From the NCBI GenBank assembly GCA_963169695.1, contig CAUJDS010000068.1, positions 1-40,736 of the forward strand: a stretch of 40,736 nucleotides of DNA. The letters are read 5' to 3'. Source of the stretch: Bdellovibrionota bacterium (GTDB lineage Bacteria > Bdellovibrionota > UBA1018 > CAUJDS01). The translations under genes and the position numbers were made by a program. Below, piece by piece: positions 175-39,228 of this stretch. Each line of letters opens with the position of its first letter. Position 1 is the first letter of the stretch. The notes below the pieces were generated by a model. The model was given only the letters and a program-made list of their open reading frames with translations, did no database searches and was not told the origin of the DNA.

Positions 175-1236
175 TCAGATATCCGTATCAAAGTCCGAGC
201 CGTCTTCCACTCCCGCTTCTTTTTTCTTAGCGGGAACGATCATTCCACGTTTACGAAGCTTTTCTACCAGCGTAGTCCGATTCATCTGAAGTAATTCACT
301 GGCTTTATTCTTGTTTCCCGAAGTACGCGACAGCGCCTGGTCAATCAAGTGGTTCTCAAATGATGCAACCACATTCTTGAGGTCCAAACCTTGATTTGGA
401 AGAACCATCCTAGGAAAATCCCATTCCGAAATCGCTCCAGCACCCGCTGGCTGTGTTTCGGCATATTTTCTGAAGACTCGCTGAGGAAGGTCTTCCAGGC
501 CAATTCCACCATGACCCTTAAGAATGACCACGCGCTCGATTAAATTCTCTAGCTCGCGAATATTTCCCGGCCAATCATAAGCAAGTAGAGCCTCTAGCAC
601 AGCACCTTCAGGGGCCTGAACCGAGTGACCCGTAATGCGATCAATCTTTTCCACAAAGTGTTTGACCAAGAGCGGAATATCGCTTTTTCGCTCCCGAAGT
701 GGAGGAATCATGACAGGAATCACATTGAGTCGATAGAAAAGATCTTCTCGAAATTCTCGCTTCGCCACCGCCTCTTCCAAATTGCGATTGGTTGCAGCAA
801 TGATACGGACATCGACCGTCCGAGTCTCGGAAGATCCAATTGGCTCAAATTGCTTTGTCTGTATCACTCGAAGCAACTTCACTTGAAGGTGAAGCGGAAT
901 TTCTCCCACTTCATCGAGGAACAAGGTGCCCTCGTGCGCAAGTTCAAAGCGCCCCATGCGATCTTGAGTTGCACCAGTAAAAGAGCCTTTTTTATGTCCA
1001 AAAAGCTCAGCCTCTAAAAGATCGCCTGGAATCGCGCCGCAATTGACGGTTACCATCGGCCGATCCGCGCGCTGAGATTCGAGATGAATAGCGCGAGCAA
1101 CCAACTCTTTGCCCGTACCGCTTTCTCCTGTAATCAGCACCGTGCTATCGGTCTGAGCTACTTTTTGTACTGTTTTTAAAATTTGCTGAATGGCGGGACC
1201 TTCCCCGACCAAAAAAGACGAATGATTTGCGAGCAT
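175..1236 (-). CDS. Sigma-54-dependent transcriptional activator without receiver domain
   Basis: An enhancer-binding protein of the NtrC/PspF class that would use ATP hydrolysis to open sigma-54 RNA polymerase promoters. Visible in its 353 residues: Walker A GESGTGKE (about 37-44), the sigma-54 contact loop GSFTGA (84-89), Walker B around GTLFLDEVGE (103-112), and a C-terminal Fis-type helix-turn-helix (about 306-332, with KASELLQMNRTTLVEKLRKR). The AAA+ module starts almost at residue 10, so there is no receiver, GAF or PAS domain; control must come from a partner protein or from expression level. A TTG lies at 1239, but the ATG at 1236 sits 6 bases after a strong SD (AAGGGGGG) and is preferred. 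The short acidic tail after the HTH is unusual. The family is certain; the target promoters are unknown. Confidence 0.93.
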   Translation of the reverse strand: MLANHSSFLVGEGPAIQQILKTVQKVAQTDSTVLITGESGTGKELVARAIHLESQRADRPMVTVNCGAIPGDLLEAELFGHKKGSFTGATQDRMGRFELAHEGTLFLDEVGEIPLHLQVKLLRVIQTKQFEPIGSSETRTVDVRIIAATNRNLEEAVAKREFREDLFYRLNVIPVMIPPLRERKSDIPLLVKHFVEKIDRITGHSVQAPEGAVLEALLAYDWPGNIRELENLIERVVILKGHGGIGLEDLPQRVFRKYAETQPAGAGAISEWDFPRMVLPNQGLDLKNVVASFENHLIDQALSRTSGNKNKASELLQMNRTTLVEKLRKRGMIVPAKKKEAGVEDGSDFDTDI

Positions 1237-1387
1237 CAATGCCCCCCTTCAACCCTTCCATGAGTTCACAATCCTTGTGATCAGGCGACGGTTCACCGTC
1301 ACCCACCTAAAAATGCTAAGCAAATACTGCCCAGCTGTCAAACAGATGTTTTGAAGATTGAAGAATAATTTTGGGGATACACTCAGA

Positions 1388-24985: not shown

Positions 24986-25510
24986 ATGGCAAAACGCCTT
25001 GAACCAGCTTCTCGTCCCGCAGGTGGCCTGAGTATAGTGGATCTCGTCGTCTTTTTGACGGTCGGAGCCTTTTTTGGTCATTCACTATTTAAACTTTTTG
25101 GCGACTGGGACCATATGAAGGTGCAAAGCACTGAGCTCTCCATTGCAGCCACTGCGCAAGCGGATGGAAGCGAGGCGCGATCACCTGCAAGTATCACGGT
25201 GTCCTCATTTGCCAATGTTGAATACAATTGTGAAGGTACGTCGGTCACCGAAACCAAAGCCTCTAGGATTCGACTCAGTGGCCCACTCTGTCAAGCGCCT
25301 GAATCTGCGGCTAGTGATGGCTCGGTAGTCAAAACAGAAATCACCAATCAATCAAACCAAATCTCGGCCACCGTCTTTACTGACACAGCTTTGAATCGAT
25401 TTTTGACAGACTATTTGCCACTTGCCGGTGGAGATAACGAAATTCAATTTAAGTTCATATATCGAGATGGAAAATCTCAGACCAAAGAAATCAAAATAAA
25501 AAAAATCTAG
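24986..25510 (+). CDS. Membrane-anchored periplasmic protein, unknown function
   Basis: 174 residues: a basic N-terminus (MAKRLEPASRPAGG), one transmembrane segment at about 15-38 (LSIVDLVVFLTVGAFFGHSLFKLF), then a soluble Ser/Thr/Ala-rich domain of predicted beta strands (ASITVSSFANVEYNCEGTSV; NEIQFKFIYRDG) with two cysteines about 30 residues apart that could form a disulfide. It lies 54 bases after gdhA. The stop overlaps the convergent stop of the next gene by three bases. No family is recognised. Confidence 0.6.
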   Translation: MAKRLEPASRPAGGLSIVDLVVFLTVGAFFGHSLFKLFGDWDHMKVQSTELSIAATAQADGSEARSPASITVSSFANVEYNCEGTSVTETKASRIRLSGPLCQAPESAASDGSVVKTEITNQSNQISATVFTDTALNRFLTDYLPLAGGDNEIQFKFIYRDGKSQTKEIKIKKI

Positions 25511-26451
25511 AACTTCAATCCGTAGAGCAACTCAACCACATTTTCTCCCGATCCAGGTAGATTGGATTTGCCAAGATTAGCTCCCCTTCGGTTCGCAAAT
25601 TGAACTCTCAGATTCTCACTTAGTTCTTTTGAAACCGCAGTAGTCATGATGGTAGTAGAACCACCATAGGTCAGAGAGGTCTTGAGATCCCATAGGGGAA
25701 GACCACGGCTCAAGGACAGGCGATAGGATTCATTGTCCTTTTCGGATGCTGATTTCAAACTCGATGGATCAAAGCTCCAAGGATTGCCGACCTGAACTTC
25801 TACCGATCCATCAACCAAATCGGACCGCATCCAGATGCTGCCCTTTTGTCCAGGAATATCAGCCTTCGTTCCCATCTTAAACTGAAACTGACTCTGCTCG
25901 GTAGACCCTACTGAAAGCGAAGGCTTTACCACTCGCTCCAAGCTTTTCTGTGCAGAAACAATTCCACGTACCGAACTAGAATTTTTTTGAGAATCTTCCA
26001 AACCTTTTTCAACCTGCCGCTTAAAGAGACTCGTCATAACCCAATTGCCGAAGCTCTTCATACGATTCATAAATCCACGATCTTCTTCTTGGGTAGCGAG
26101 ACCGTACTGACTACGCATTTCGTATTCGCGATTGCTATCGTGGAAGTTTTGCTCCACCTCATTGGTCTGCTTCTCATCCCAGATTGCGTCCACGAGCGTC
26201 TTATTATCGAGACCATGCTTGCGATTACTGAGTAGGCTTGCATTGGGACTCTTCACCTGCTCACGACTCAATGACTTCGAGGACTTGGCCCAAGCAGGTC
26301 CAAGCGATTTCAGGCTAGCAGCCGCCCGACTTGCCTGAGGCTGCTCCAGCTCACTGACAGGCGCCACTGCGGGATGGGCCATCGAAGGGCAAAGAGCCAC
26401 CGATGCGGCAAGCGCCCAAATGAGGATCTGGTTTGCGGATTTGAATTTCAT
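25507..26451 (-). CDS. Secreted protein of unknown family
   Basis: 314 residues starting at ATG 26451 (TTGGA a few bases upstream). The signal peptide is MKFKSANQILIWALAASVALC, ending near AHPAVA. An upstream in-frame start at 26502 would bury the signal. The mature N-terminal half is charged and helical (DAIWDEKQTNEVEQNFHDSN). The C-terminal half has alternating strands and ends in VVELLYGLKF, with a terminal aromatic residue as in outer-membrane beta-barrel proteins. Strand-like repeats near the end (SYRLSLSRGLPLWDLKTSLT; LRVQFANRRG) fit a small barrel or a two-strand hairpin array. The outer-membrane idea is inference. Confidence 0.65.
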   Translation of the reverse strand: MKFKSANQILIWALAASVALCPSMAHPAVAPVSELEQPQASRAAASLKSLGPAWAKSSKSLSREQVKSPNASLLSNRKHGLDNKTLVDAIWDEKQTNEVEQNFHDSNREYEMRSQYGLATQEEDRGFMNRMKSFGNWVMTSLFKRQVEKGLEDSQKNSSSVRGIVSAQKSLERVVKPSLSVGSTEQSQFQFKMGTKADIPGQKGSIWMRSDLVDGSVEVQVGNPWSFDPSSLKSASEKDNESYRLSLSRGLPLWDLKTSLTYGGSTTIMTTAVSKELSENLRVQFANRRGANLGKSNLPGSGENVVELLYGLKF

Positions 26452-26570
26452 AGCGTCCAACAGTCTACCACTAAGCAAGAAGGGGACCACTTCTTCAGGC
26501 AAATCGACCCCAAAAAAGTTAATAACTTAATGAAATTACTAATTAAATTCAAAGTCTCACTTCCAAAAAA

Positions 26571-26586
26571 TGTCACGCCCGTGACA
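26571..26586. promoter_or_regulatory. Perfect inverted repeat upstream of the 26451 gene, candidate operator
   Basis: TGTCACG-CC-CGTGACA has two perfect 7-base arms separated by 2 bases. A second, overlapping inverted repeat, GACAG-AGA-CTGTC, occupies 26583-26595. Both lie about 120-145 bases before the start of the secreted protein at 26451 and just beyond the terminator of the upstream lipoprotein gene. Such dyads are typical binding sites for dimeric regulators. The regulator is unknown. Confidence 0.4.
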
Positions 26587-26635
26587 GAGACTGTCTAAGA
26601 TTTTGACAGTTGCGAGGAAGTTCTACAATAAAAAA

Positions 26636-26665
26636 GACCCGAAAGCTTTTGAGGGCTTTCGGGTC
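26636..26665 (-). terminator. Rho-independent terminator of lipoprotein cassette 1
   Basis: Perfect 11-bp stem GACCCGAAAGC / GCTTTCGGGTC around the 8-base loop TTTTGAGG. Read on the minus strand it is followed by a T-run (complement of AATAAAAAA at 26627-26635). It lies 28 bases after the stop of the lipoprotein gene at 26694. Confidence 0.9.
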
Positions 26666-26693
26666 CATTTTGGAAATCACTCGAATAAGAAGC

Positions 26694-27236
26694 TCAATTC
26701 AAACGAGACTTTGTAGTTTGAATATCTTGCTTCATCGCTTCGTAAGAAGTCACAAACTGTTTTCTAATCAGCTCGATACCTTCCTTATCAGGAACGATAA
26801 ATGGAACGTTGTTTTTGCAATCATCCAATTTTTTGCCCGCGCTCAAGGCGAGGCGGTCGGCAATCTTGGCGACCTTAGCTTCTTGAACGGCAACTTCTGA
26901 TTCAAACGCCACTAGCTTGTCCCGATTGCTAGCTACAAATTCTGGATCCGAATGTGGCTTCAAATTTGCTATCTTCATCAATTCAACAGTCGTTATAACT
27001 TTCTTAGAAGATGCTGAAACGCTCTCGTTTAATTCATTGTACTTGGATTGAATGTCATTGAGGCTTTGTGTTGCTTCCTCACAATTCATTTCAGTTAATT
27101 GGGCTGGGGCTGGAGATTCTGCTTGCGAATCTCCTTTATTCATTTTTGCACAAGCAACAAATAGCATGGATACACTTAGTATCGATGCAGCCGATGCTGC
27201 AAATCGCTTTGGTGTTCTTCTTGGTTTCTGACTCAT
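26694..27236 (-). CDS. Lipoprotein, cassette 1 of a tandem paralogous pair
   Basis: 180 residues. ATG 27236 follows the SD GGAGG (4 bases away). The lipoprotein signal ends SMLFVAC with the lipid-carrying Cys at residue 29. The mature part is helical and coiled-coil-like, with two further cysteines 88 residues apart (NCEEATQ and LDDCKNN) that could form a disulfide. It shares EAKVAKIAD with EAKIAD in its neighbour. The gene has its own terminator (26636) and a 67-bp upstream block (27330) nearly identical to that of the neighbour. An in-frame extension to 27347 lacks support. The function is unknown; an envelope location follows from the lipobox. Confidence 0.75.
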   Translation of the reverse strand: MSQKPRRTPKRFAASAASILSVSMLFVACAKMNKGDSQAESPAPAQLTEMNCEEATQSLNDIQSKYNELNESVSASSKKVITTVELMKIANLKPHSDPEFVASNRDKLVAFESEVAVQEAKVAKIADRLALSAGKKLDDCKNNVPFIVPDKEGIELIRKQFVTSYEAMKQDIQTTKSRLN

Positions 27237-27329
27237 AGATCCTCCAAAAAAACCTTTCAGTGTTTCAAAACAACTATTGTTCAAAACATCGGACCAGCTA
27301 TAAGCAAGGTCCGTACCCAATTCAAACTG

Positions 27330-27396
27330 CGAAATCCTTGGGGCCATTTTGAGCGAATGCAGTCCATAGTGACGAATTATGGATTTGACAGTGACG
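27330..27396 (-). repeat. 67-bp conserved upstream block, copy 1
   Basis: Matches 28125-28191 with a single mismatch (27390 versus 28185). It ends 94 bases before the ATG of lipoprotein 1, the same offset as in copy 2. Inside are an inverted repeat TCCATA-N9-TATGGA (27363-27383), extendable to 8 pairs with one G-U, and two direct GTGACG hexamers at 27369 and 27391, 22 bases apart or about two helical turns. This is probably a shared regulatory region. I cannot place a convincing -35/-10 pair in it, though CATAAT (minus strand, complement of 27376-27381) could be a -10. Confidence 0.8.
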
Positions 27397-27439
27397 GTTT
27401 TAGTCCAGATTTTTCAATCTTCTGATGGAAAATAAAAAA

Positions 27440-27469
27440 GGCCCGAAAGCTTTTGAGGGCTTTCGGGCC
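27440..27469 (-). terminator. Rho-independent terminator of lipoprotein cassette 2
   Basis: Perfect 11-bp stem GGCCCGAAAGC / GCTTTCGGGCC with the loop TTTTGAGG. It differs from the cassette-1 terminator only by a compensatory change (A-T to G-C) in the second base pair. A-runs on the upstream side (TAAAAAA) give a U-tract on the minus strand. It lies 27 bases after the stop of the second lipoprotein. A short T-run on the plus side could make it bidirectional. Confidence 0.9.
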
Positions 27470-27496
27470 TTTATGTTGAATTGCTTATTTAAGCGT

Positions 27497-28030
27497 TTAG
27501 TCGACGGATGAATCCGTAGCAACTTCTTCAAGATCAGATTTATTGATCGCAACTTTGCTTAAATTTTTAGCAACGAATCCTTCTAGTTCCGTTCGCTCAA
27601 TATTCTGAGCATCTAAGCTAAGAACATGCAAAGTACTACCGTCCGAACAACCTTCCACATCCGTGTCGGCAATCGGAGCAACCATTGCATAATAATCTGC
27701 AATTTTTGCTTCATGGGCTTTGATTTCAGACTCTGATTTATTCAAAGCTTCGGCTTGAACGAAATTCATCTCTTCACTAATGAGTAGTGGCTGAGAAAGA
27801 TAATCAATTAGGACTGCGTCGATTTTCGACATATTCAAACTCAATCGCATGCTCTCATCGTCGAGTGCACTCTTTGCAGCTGCTATATCGTCACATTTTG
27901 TGTCTTTTTTTACTGCAGTTTCTTCAGCTTTCTGTTCTTGTTTGTTGAATTCATTACACGCCGTTAGGCTGCCTAAGCATGCTGCCATTACAGCAGCTAG
28001 TGCTATGGCTTGGTTACTGTTTCGTTTCAT
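27497..28030 (-). CDS. Lipoprotein, cassette 2 of a tandem paralogous pair
   Basis: 177 residues. ATG 28030 has the same SD and spacer as cassette 1 (GGAGGATCT). The lipobox is SLTAC with Cys at residue 25 (MKRNSNQAIALAAVMAACLG start). The mature part is Glu/Asp/Lys-rich and helical. Two cysteines lie 82 residues apart (KCDDIAA and EGCSDGS), close to the 88 of the paralog. The C-terminal third (TELEGFVAKNLSKVAINKSD) has no match in the paralog. The proteins have diverged strongly while the upstream and terminator DNA stayed nearly identical. Function unknown. Confidence 0.75.
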   Translation of the reverse strand: MKRNSNQAIALAAVMAACLGSLTACNEFNKQEQKAEETAVKKDTKCDDIAAAKSALDDESMRLSLNMSKIDAVLIDYLSQPLLISEEMNFVQAEALNKSESEIKAHEAKIADYYAMVAPIADTDVEGCSDGSTLHVLSLDAQNIERTELEGFVAKNLSKVAINKSDLEEVATDSSVD

Positions 28031-28124
28031 AGATCCTCCAAATAGCCTTTCAGTATTCGAAAGCGATTACCGCCTTCAAACAACGGGAATGCACTTAGCA
28101 AGAGCCGTTCCTACCGAGTATTGC

Positions 28125-28191
28125 CGAAATCCTTGGGGCCATTTTGAGCGAATGCAGTCCATAGTGACGAATTATGGATTTGACTGTGACG
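28125..28191 (-). repeat. 67-bp conserved upstream block, copy 2
   Basis: Second copy of the 27330-27396 block with one mismatch. The inverted repeat is at 28158-28178 and the GTGACG pair at 28164 and 28186. It begins 95 bases before the second lipoprotein ATG and ends 18 bases before the stop of the upstream dolichol-kinase-like gene. The 95-base leaders of both cassettes also align, but with many changes, so the block has been conserved more strictly than the leader or the genes. Confidence 0.8.
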
Positions 28192-28209: not shown

Positions 28210-28872
28210 CTAAACGACAGAAATTCCAAAGAACATTGCGCCAAACCAAAGAGACAATGCAGATGCCACAGGGATTACGAAATTGTCATCCAGCTTCAGT
28301 GGCAAAACTTCAGCAATTCCTGCCGTCATTCCGCCAATAAGAGCCAGAATCCATTGTTGATTAGAATGAAATCCAAAAGCAGCTAGGACAGGAAAGCTCA
28401 CGAGAAAGCTCACTCCTCCACCAGCAAGTGCCCCGATTAGAGACTTTCCGTTGGAAAAGCGGCTGCTTCGGTGGCCATAAAGGATTCCGACTAAGGAAGC
28501 TGCAGGGTCCCCCAACGTCAGATAGAGCAGACTTAATACTGCAATGGAGCGGGGAAATAGCAAAACGACGAGAAACGCGGCCGCAATAAAATAGGGCACA
28601 CCGCTGACTCGATGACGTTCTTCCTCGCGCAAAATGGGTCCCAAGCATCGATGCACAGCGTGATTGAGTCGAGGTATCCTCAATCGAAAAACCTCCATCG
28701 AGATCGAAAACGTCAAAAGAATGGCGAGTACTGTAAGAGAACCGACTCGATCTAGACCGCTGAATACAAAAACGCCAATACCCGTAAGCCCGGCAGACAA
28801 ATGCCAAGCCTTTCTCGCCAAATGAAGATCGGTCCTACGATTCAACCCCACCGCTTCGTCACTTCCTCCCAC
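28210..28872 (-). CDS. Dolichol/phytol-kinase-like CTP-dependent membrane kinase family protein
   Basis: A 220-residue polytopic membrane protein with about six hydrophobic segments. Family features: RKAWHLSAGL near the N-terminus, the GDPAASLVGILYGHR segment, KSLIGALAGG, and the terminal KLDDNFVIPVASALSLW, which match the SEC59/VTE5-type group (dolichol kinase, phytol kinase, related to CDP-diglyceride synthetases). These transfer phosphate from CTP to a lipid alcohol in the membrane. The bacterial substrate is unknown; undecaprenol or another polyprenol is plausible. It is divergent from the MinD-like gene. The start codon is taken as given by the open frame and is not backed by a strong SD. 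Confidence 0.75.
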   Translation of the reverse strand: MGGSDEAVGLNRRTDLHLARKAWHLSAGLTGIGVFVFSGLDRVGSLTVLAILLTFSISMEVFRLRIPRLNHAVHRCLGPILREEERHRVSGVPYFIAAAFLVVLLFPRSIAVLSLLYLTLGDPAASLVGILYGHRSSRFSNGKSLIGALAGGGVSFLVSFPVLAAFGFHSNQQWILALIGGMTAGIAEVLPLKLDDNFVIPVASALSLWFGAMFFGISVV

Positions 28873-38706: not shown

Positions 38707-38913
38707 TTACCGAGCACGAGCGGCTGACGACTTCACCGTCGACACCACTGGAGCATTGGTAGCAGTACTTGCATTCTTTTGAGCAGCTACCGCATTACAC
38801 TGCACGCCAGCCATATTCATTTGACTGGTAAAACGCTTCTCTCCCGTTGAGGCAAGCGCCTGAAAAGAAGACAAGGCACACACGACAGCCACGATTCCAT
38901 TTAGTACTTTCAT
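38707..38913 (-). CDS. Small secreted protein, unknown function
   Basis: 68 residues with a signal peptide (MKVLNGIVAVVCALSSFQALA, cleavage after ALA) and a Ser/Thr/Ala/Asn-rich mature peptide of about 47 residues ending SSAARAR, with one cysteine (VQCNAV). The SD GAGGAG lies about 7 bases before the ATG. It is convergent with the CheY operon (9 bases between stops). No family is recognised. The strong SD and signal peptide make it a likely real gene. Confidence 0.65.
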   Translation of the reverse strand: MKVLNGIVAVVCALSSFQALASTGEKRFTSQMNMAGVQCNAVAAQKNASTATNAPVVSTVKSSAARAR

Positions 38914-39228
38914 TTTCTCTACTCCTCACAACAGCTACACGACTTAGTCCCGTTATTGAGACCAAACCACACTTCACTGCACAGCCCAGTGGCTGTCTAC
39001 ACACCAGTCATTGCAACCTGGGTGCCACAGGCCACAGGTCCAAAAATACCTTCCTATCTATATGTAATTAAAGGCTTTTATACGATTTTTGCTTTGCGAC
39101 GCACGACTCTCTTTTTGGAAGAGGTGCTTTACAGCTGTCTACTTATTAGACAATTAAAAGGTTGGGACCTCATTGGGCCGCCAAAAAGAAATTGGCACCT
39201 GAGAGGGATCCACGTTAAACCCAATTTG
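38914..39228. other. Intergenic region with one inverted repeat
   Basis: 315 bases between the small secreted gene and the epimerase. The epimerase frame stays open through it, but that extension has no family support. It holds TGTCTA-N5-TAGACA (39136-39152), a perfect 6-base inverted repeat 77 bases before the epimerase ATG. A TTTACA (39128-39133) beside it could be a -35, but no good -10 follows at 16-18 bases. Two CCACAGG repeats occur near 39030. Nothing else is evident. Confidence 0.35.

Follow-up and report, generated by a model that had tools for sequence, protein, structure and literature searches.

Two divergent lipoprotein genes with near-identical ends

Two adjacent lipoprotein genes in a metagenome-derived Oligoflexia draft genome (2.79 Mb in 82 contigs, 95.6% complete) carry upstream blocks and terminators that are nearly identical to each other, whereas the proteins encoded between these ends have diverged to about 27% identity. 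The account that we favor, with moderate confidence, is that both genes, products of an ancient duplication, are inserted units in a conserved envelope locus, that they are controlled by sigma-54, and that their block and terminator ends were copied recently. Coordinates below refer to the window, i.e., the whole stretch of 40,736 nucleotides that was analyzed. The features of the locus are as follows, from the 5′ to the 3′ border of the inserted interval and into the next gene:

28210..28872, minus strand: conserved gene for a kinase-like membrane protein, 5′ border of the inserted interval
28125..28191, minus strand: block copy 1 (67 bp, upstream of gene 1), about -39 to -105 relative to the predicted sigma-54 start
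28097..28112, minus strand: predicted sigma-54 -24/-12 promoter of gene 1, AGGAACGGCTCTTGCT
27497..28030, minus strand: gene 1, encoding P0001, a predicted lipoprotein of 177 aa with lipobox LTAC and a Cys pair 82 residues apart
27431..27467, minus strand: repeated core of the predicted intrinsic terminator of gene 1
27330..27396, minus strand: block copy 2 (67 bp, upstream of gene 2), about -38 to -104 relative to the predicted start
27303..27318, minus strand: predicted sigma-54 -24/-12 promoter of gene 2, GGGTACGGACCTTGCT
26694..27236, minus strand: gene 2, encoding P0002, a predicted lipoprotein of 180 aa with lipobox FVAC and a Cys pair 88 residues apart
26627..26663, minus strand: repeated core of the predicted intrinsic terminator of gene 2, one compensatory pair changed
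26592..26608, minus strand: enhancer dyad TGTCAAAATCTTAGACA of the next gene, conserved in relatives, 3′ border of the inserted interval
26474..26489, minus strand: predicted sigma-54 promoter of the next gene, TGGTCCCCTTCTTGCT
25507..26451, minus strand: conserved gene for an exported protein of 314 aa, ATG start at 26451

As the preliminary description of this DNA had reported, the two block copies differ by one mismatch (66/67 identical) and the two terminators by one compensatory pair, a G-C to A-U change that is the sole stem difference between them (36/37 identical). Both terminators fold far better than shuffled sequences (z -7.1 and -6.8), and the start context TTTGGAGGATCTATG, comprising the Shine-Dalgarno sequence and spacer already recognized as shared, is the same at both genes. 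The block lies at a near-identical offset in the two copies, as claimed, although a recount gives 94 and 93 nt to the ATG instead of 94 and 95. When the window was searched with the 33-nt core of the block allowing up to three mismatches, matches were found at the two loci only, with 0 expected from shuffles. Furthermore, from block to ATG the two leaders match at only about 65% of positions (62 of 96 columns), indicating that identity falls sharply at the block edge. Each gene would form its own transcription unit, consisting of the 67-bp region, a sigma-54 promoter, a leader of about 55 nt, the coding sequence and an intrinsic terminator, with predicted starts at about 28086 for gene 1 and 27292 for gene 2. 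An Rfam search of the region returned only matches below gathering scores, mostly over the terminator region.

Both proteins start with a positive N-terminus and a hydrophobic stretch followed by a lipobox ending in cysteine (predicted Cys25 in LTAC for P0001 and Cys29 in FVAC for P0002), and thus qualify as bacterial lipoproteins by the signal peptide and lipobox of their predicted sequences. A phenylalanine at lipobox position -3, as in FVAC, is atypical. The signal peptides themselves differ, and what the two proteins have in common was correctly described earlier: the lipobox, the cysteine pair and an EAKIA/EAKVA stretch. P0001 and P0002 are probably homologous, if weakly related, with a BLASTP E value of 0.07 and a global alignment score (z 4.7) matched by none of 1000 shuffles. 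Over aligned codons, their coding sequences share about 42% identity, and the same codon is used at 11 of the 45 identical residues, below the 17.7 expected from codon usage, which points to saturated synonymous sites. The claim that the flanks are better conserved than the genes was thereby borne out at both levels, as the block remains 66/67 identical. Neither lipoprotein had a credible match in Pfam, NCBIfam, PHROGs or PDB sequences, and their structures were poorly predicted (pLDDT 58 and 39).

The pair as an insertion in a conserved gene order

Relatives of the locus were found through the MinD/FlhG-like gene among Oligoflexia and Bdellovibrionales MAGs. Most of them share the gene order MutS2-like, exported gene, kinase-like membrane protein, MinD/FlhG-like and DnaJ/RodZ-like, in which the MutS2-like and kinase-like labels are our own reading of the sequences and not database matches. 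Only the promoter region separates the kinase-like and exported genes in these relatives, the distance from the kinase stop to the enhancer dyad being 13-64 bp, compared with 1.6 kb in the window. It is exactly this expanded interval that the lipoprotein pair occupies; judged by gene order, the pair is an insertion of about 1.6 kb. The product of the conserved exported gene, which has no Pfam or NCBIfam match, is probably located in the outer membrane. Since the sigma-54 promoter lies inside a longer ORF with a TTG start (25507-26502), the gene probably starts at the ATG at 26451. Immediately beneath this gene's enhancer dyad lies a second dyad, TGTCACGGGCGTGACA, with six T after it (26571-26586, minus strand), which might be an operator or a terminator-like element.

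An insertion missing from relatives, in which two direct repeats 795 bp apart flank one gene, might also suggest a mobile gene cassette of the integron or Xer type, with the repeats as attachment or recombination sites and the lipoprotein as cargo. We consider this very unlikely, as no recombinase was recognized among the listed ORFs of the window, searches of plasmids, viral contigs and phages gave no match, and the repeats occur in only two copies in the genome, show no attC- or dif-like layout by eye and stand at a fixed distance from the promoters. It is harder still to attribute the arrangement to repeats misjoined during assembly of the metagenome-derived draft. The genome is in 82 contigs and short repeats can mislead assembly, but a repeat of 67 bp is short relative to modern reads, the flanking genes keep the conserved order, and the two interiors differ throughout.

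Copies and relatives elsewhere

The preliminary description had suggested that the unit could be a repeating cassette spread elsewhere in the genome. This was not supported, since neither the block nor the terminator has a further copy in the 2.79-Mb draft genome beyond the two loci. The block is also absent from 57 relatives, so that genome and relatives together yielded the two loci only, which is half of one outcome set beforehand as counting against that description. The lone block match among the 57 relatives (E 0.01) is at chance level and falls at the 3′ end of another gene. Three block-like matches were discarded: the one on contig C47 of the genome itself (G000) lies inside a prolyl-tRNA-synthetase-like ORF and is not a block relative, and those at G000:C11 and G030:C36 are short and at chance level.

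One further paralogue of the lipoproteins was found in the genome, within G000:C60:174800-175276 (L012, L018), where the related protein is encoded around 174890-175276 and has a cysteine pair 81 apart. Its similarity to the gene 2 protein is clear (z 6.5), while that to the gene 1 protein is not above chance. This copy lacks a signal peptide, the block and the shared terminator, and looks like a 5′-truncated remnant; its open frame begins antisense within a VapB-type antitoxin gene. A profile built from the three members of this genome and run across the order matched only these three and found relatives in 0 of 54 other genomes, so the lipoprotein family seems confined to its own lineage. 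Protein matches in G010 and G013 (E ~0.003) were rejected as coiled-coil-level similarity, the G010 match being a longer lipoprotein of another type.

Predicted sigma-54 control of both genes

Both genes carry, as far as sequence can tell, the -24 GG/-12 GC element of sigma-54 units, and their GG-N10-GC cores both end 66 nt 5′ of the ATG. In a scan of 81,442 window positions using consensus weights that were hand-set after the sites had been seen, the gene 2 promoter ranked first and the gene 1 promoter third. With a matrix derived from the promoters of seven relatives, the gene 2 promoter ranked 5, that of the exported gene 32 and that of gene 1 109, making the gene 1 promoter the weaker claim. 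Moreover, the two promoters are homologous and therefore do not constitute independent evidence. The genome encodes RpoN, as indicated by a Sigma54_DBD match at G000:C55:22143-22622 (E 1.7e-64). In most relatives with a readable upstream region, the exported gene has a -24/-12 promoter (e.g., TGGTATGTGGATTGCT), often with the dyad TGTCWAANNNTTWGACA 68-120 bp above it, and the exported gene of the window likewise combines promoter TGGTCCCCTTCTTGCT with a perfect TGTC-N9-GACA dyad. Both lipoprotein genes thus look to be under the sigma-54 switch used here for other cell-surface genes, and the presence of a predicted promoter at the same offset in both makes their co-regulation, already proposed in the preliminary description, probable.

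RpoN-containing RNA polymerase would remain at the -24/-12 element until an enhancer-binding protein, acting from upstream DNA, lets it initiate. At many sigma-54 promoters, the activator binding sites lie about 70-150 bp upstream (PMC3844500), and each block spans about -38 to -105, directly upstream of its predicted promoter, which places it in the usual enhancer position. The block may accordingly be read as a putative enhancer; as it sits where the activator would be expected to bind, both lipoproteins should switch on together, and the pair would join the other exported proteins of the genome's sigma-54 envelope regulon. The full dyad is absent from the block, the best dyad scores of the two upstream regions being no better than those of shuffles (p 0.10 and 0.45), and no more than one of its half-sites can be recognized there. 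This half-site, CTGTCAAA, is intact in copy 2 (p 0.006 within the block), and the sole block mismatch turns it into CAGTCAAA in copy 1. With no full dyad and a half-site broken in one copy, the block may bind another protein or none. At 175-1239 (minus strand), the window encodes a sigma-54 enhancer-binding protein with AAA+ and Fis-type HTH domains, in an ORF without a receiver domain, which is a candidate activator.

An alternative is that the sigma-54 matches arise by coincidence and that the block represents a promoter of the sigma-70 type or belongs to a transcribed 5′ leader. By eye, CTGTCA can be found 17 bp 5′ of TATGGA, and an ATG at the block end opens a frame running into the lipoprotein in gene 2. 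However, a consensus scan passed no sigma-70 site on this strand, the same frame is a 15-codon ORF in copy 1 and lacks a Shine-Dalgarno sequence, a search for the block as structured RNA found no structure (z +0.8), and the sigma-54 cores rank first and third in the window. We therefore regard this alternative as improbable and retain sigma-54 control as the working assignment.

Probable recent copying of the block and terminator ends

The near-identity of the ends was compared with what sigma-54 control ordinarily preserves. In 136 ortholog pairs of upstream regions with sigma-54 promoters, the best 67-mer without gaps was 37/67 whatever the protein identity (pairs with L075, whose protein stretch is very short, are to be ignored for identity classes), a benchmark that applies between species, whereas the two blocks at 66/67 share one cell. 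Comparable upstream regions under sigma-54 retain nothing beyond enhancer dyad and promoter core. Since enhancer constraint ordinarily keeps no more than 37/67, recent homogenization or flank-anchored cassette exchange is needed to explain the blocks, and the sequences suggest that blocks and terminators were probably copied recently relative to the coding parts.

Pure purifying selection would instead require that all bases of the block be functional, for example, through several activator dimers and a bending protein, and that they have stayed identical since the old duplication without exchange. The enhancer position of the block and the compensatory nature of the terminator difference, which preserves the stem, are consistent with such a scenario. 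Yet other sigma-54 upstream regions of the order show no comparable constraint, the terminator loop is identical too, though loops are normally free to vary, and the only block mismatch falls in the one recognizable half-site. We consider this explanation unlikely, and strong selection on the regulatory DNA alone is disfavored. Thus, where the preliminary description had left a choice between selection and conversion acting on the flanks, an old duplication followed by gene conversion or an equivalent recent exchange is supported, and strong selection by itself is the less likely cause.

We infer exchange between the copies from their identity in one strain, and likewise the recombination route and the activity of the promoters from sequence. 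Recent copying of the ends could have occurred by two routes. Two short gene conversions may have taken place, one per end; alternatively, one unit may have been duplicated recently and its interior then swapped for a divergent cassette via the shared ends. The second route would account for both ends by one kind of event and, by analogy, fits the erp loci (ospE/ospF/elp) of Borrelia burgdorferi, in which promoter/operator DNA is strongly conserved while coding parts are divergent, a pattern attributed to recombination, and different coding sequences have been argued to have entered one conserved site (PMC6719511, PMC10016077). The likeness to this upstream homology box lies in the conserved upstream DNA (66/67) next to divergent, here saturated, coding sequence. 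In contrast, erp copies reside on many cp32 prophage plasmids, whereas the present pair is tandem, in a conserved neighborhood of chromosomal type and without plasmid match; erp genes keep their leader peptide, while the signal peptides differ here; the terminator is conserved here as well; and erp promoters are of housekeeping or RpoS type, the predicted sigma-54 control being a new element relative to the Borrelia loci. The pair may therefore be said to work like the Borrelia upstream-homology-box loci but not to be a member of them, a likeness drawn from published descriptions of those loci.

A bolder proposal, which we find doubtful, is that the locus acts as a sigma-54 expression socket, in which the identical ends serve as recombination handles and divergent lipoprotein interiors are swapped between strains. 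If true, it would represent a chromosomal, activator-controlled counterpart of the erp loci. In any case, the pair is a clear example of regulatory ends that seem to evolve together, unlike the genes between them, and flank-anchored exchange would be a testable route by which uncultured relatives of predatory bacteria could diversify their cell-surface proteins.

A dyad and promoter module before exported genes across the order

The lipoprotein pair led us to a module of TGTC-N9-GACA plus a -24/-12 element before exported and lipoprotein genes across this Oligoflexia order (loci L088-L132 in the genome and its order relatives). With at most one mismatch allowed, the dyad occurs at nine places in the genome; at most of these a sigma-54-like element lies downstream and genes for exported proteins or lipoproteins come next, at two of them on both sides. 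Promoter scores this high turn up at about 1-8% of random positions, according to the threshold chosen. In this genome, the module of dyad TGTCWAANNNTTWGACA and -24/-12 promoter stands upstream of some ten genes for exported proteins or lipoproteins. Across the order, the combined pattern gave 33 matches in 17 of 55 genomes, compared with 0 for a reversed control. A signal sequence, called by a crude rule, was found in 19 of 29 genes 3′ of the module versus a baseline of 16 of 81 (Fisher p ~1e-5); the dyad had, however, been learnt from promoters of the conserved exported gene, and a few of the 29 are that gene or near-identical sisters.

This dyad resembles the QseF/GlrR enhancers of enterobacteria (glmY, rpoE), described as TGTC-N10-GACA above sigma-54 promoters tied to envelope homeostasis (PMC8745638) and also written TGT-N12-ACA (PMC6075780). 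The spacer is N10 in that system but N9 here, where the targets are exported proteins and lipoproteins, and the full dyad is found upstream of the neighboring exported gene and not in the 67-bp block. A limited search of open-access text found no paper on such a regulon in this Oligoflexia order. The core ranking second in the window scan is itself dyad-linked: TGGCACCCAGGTTGCA (39012-39027, minus strand) and a dyad at 39136-39152 (minus strand) precede an exported 68-aa ORF at 38707-38913 (minus strand).
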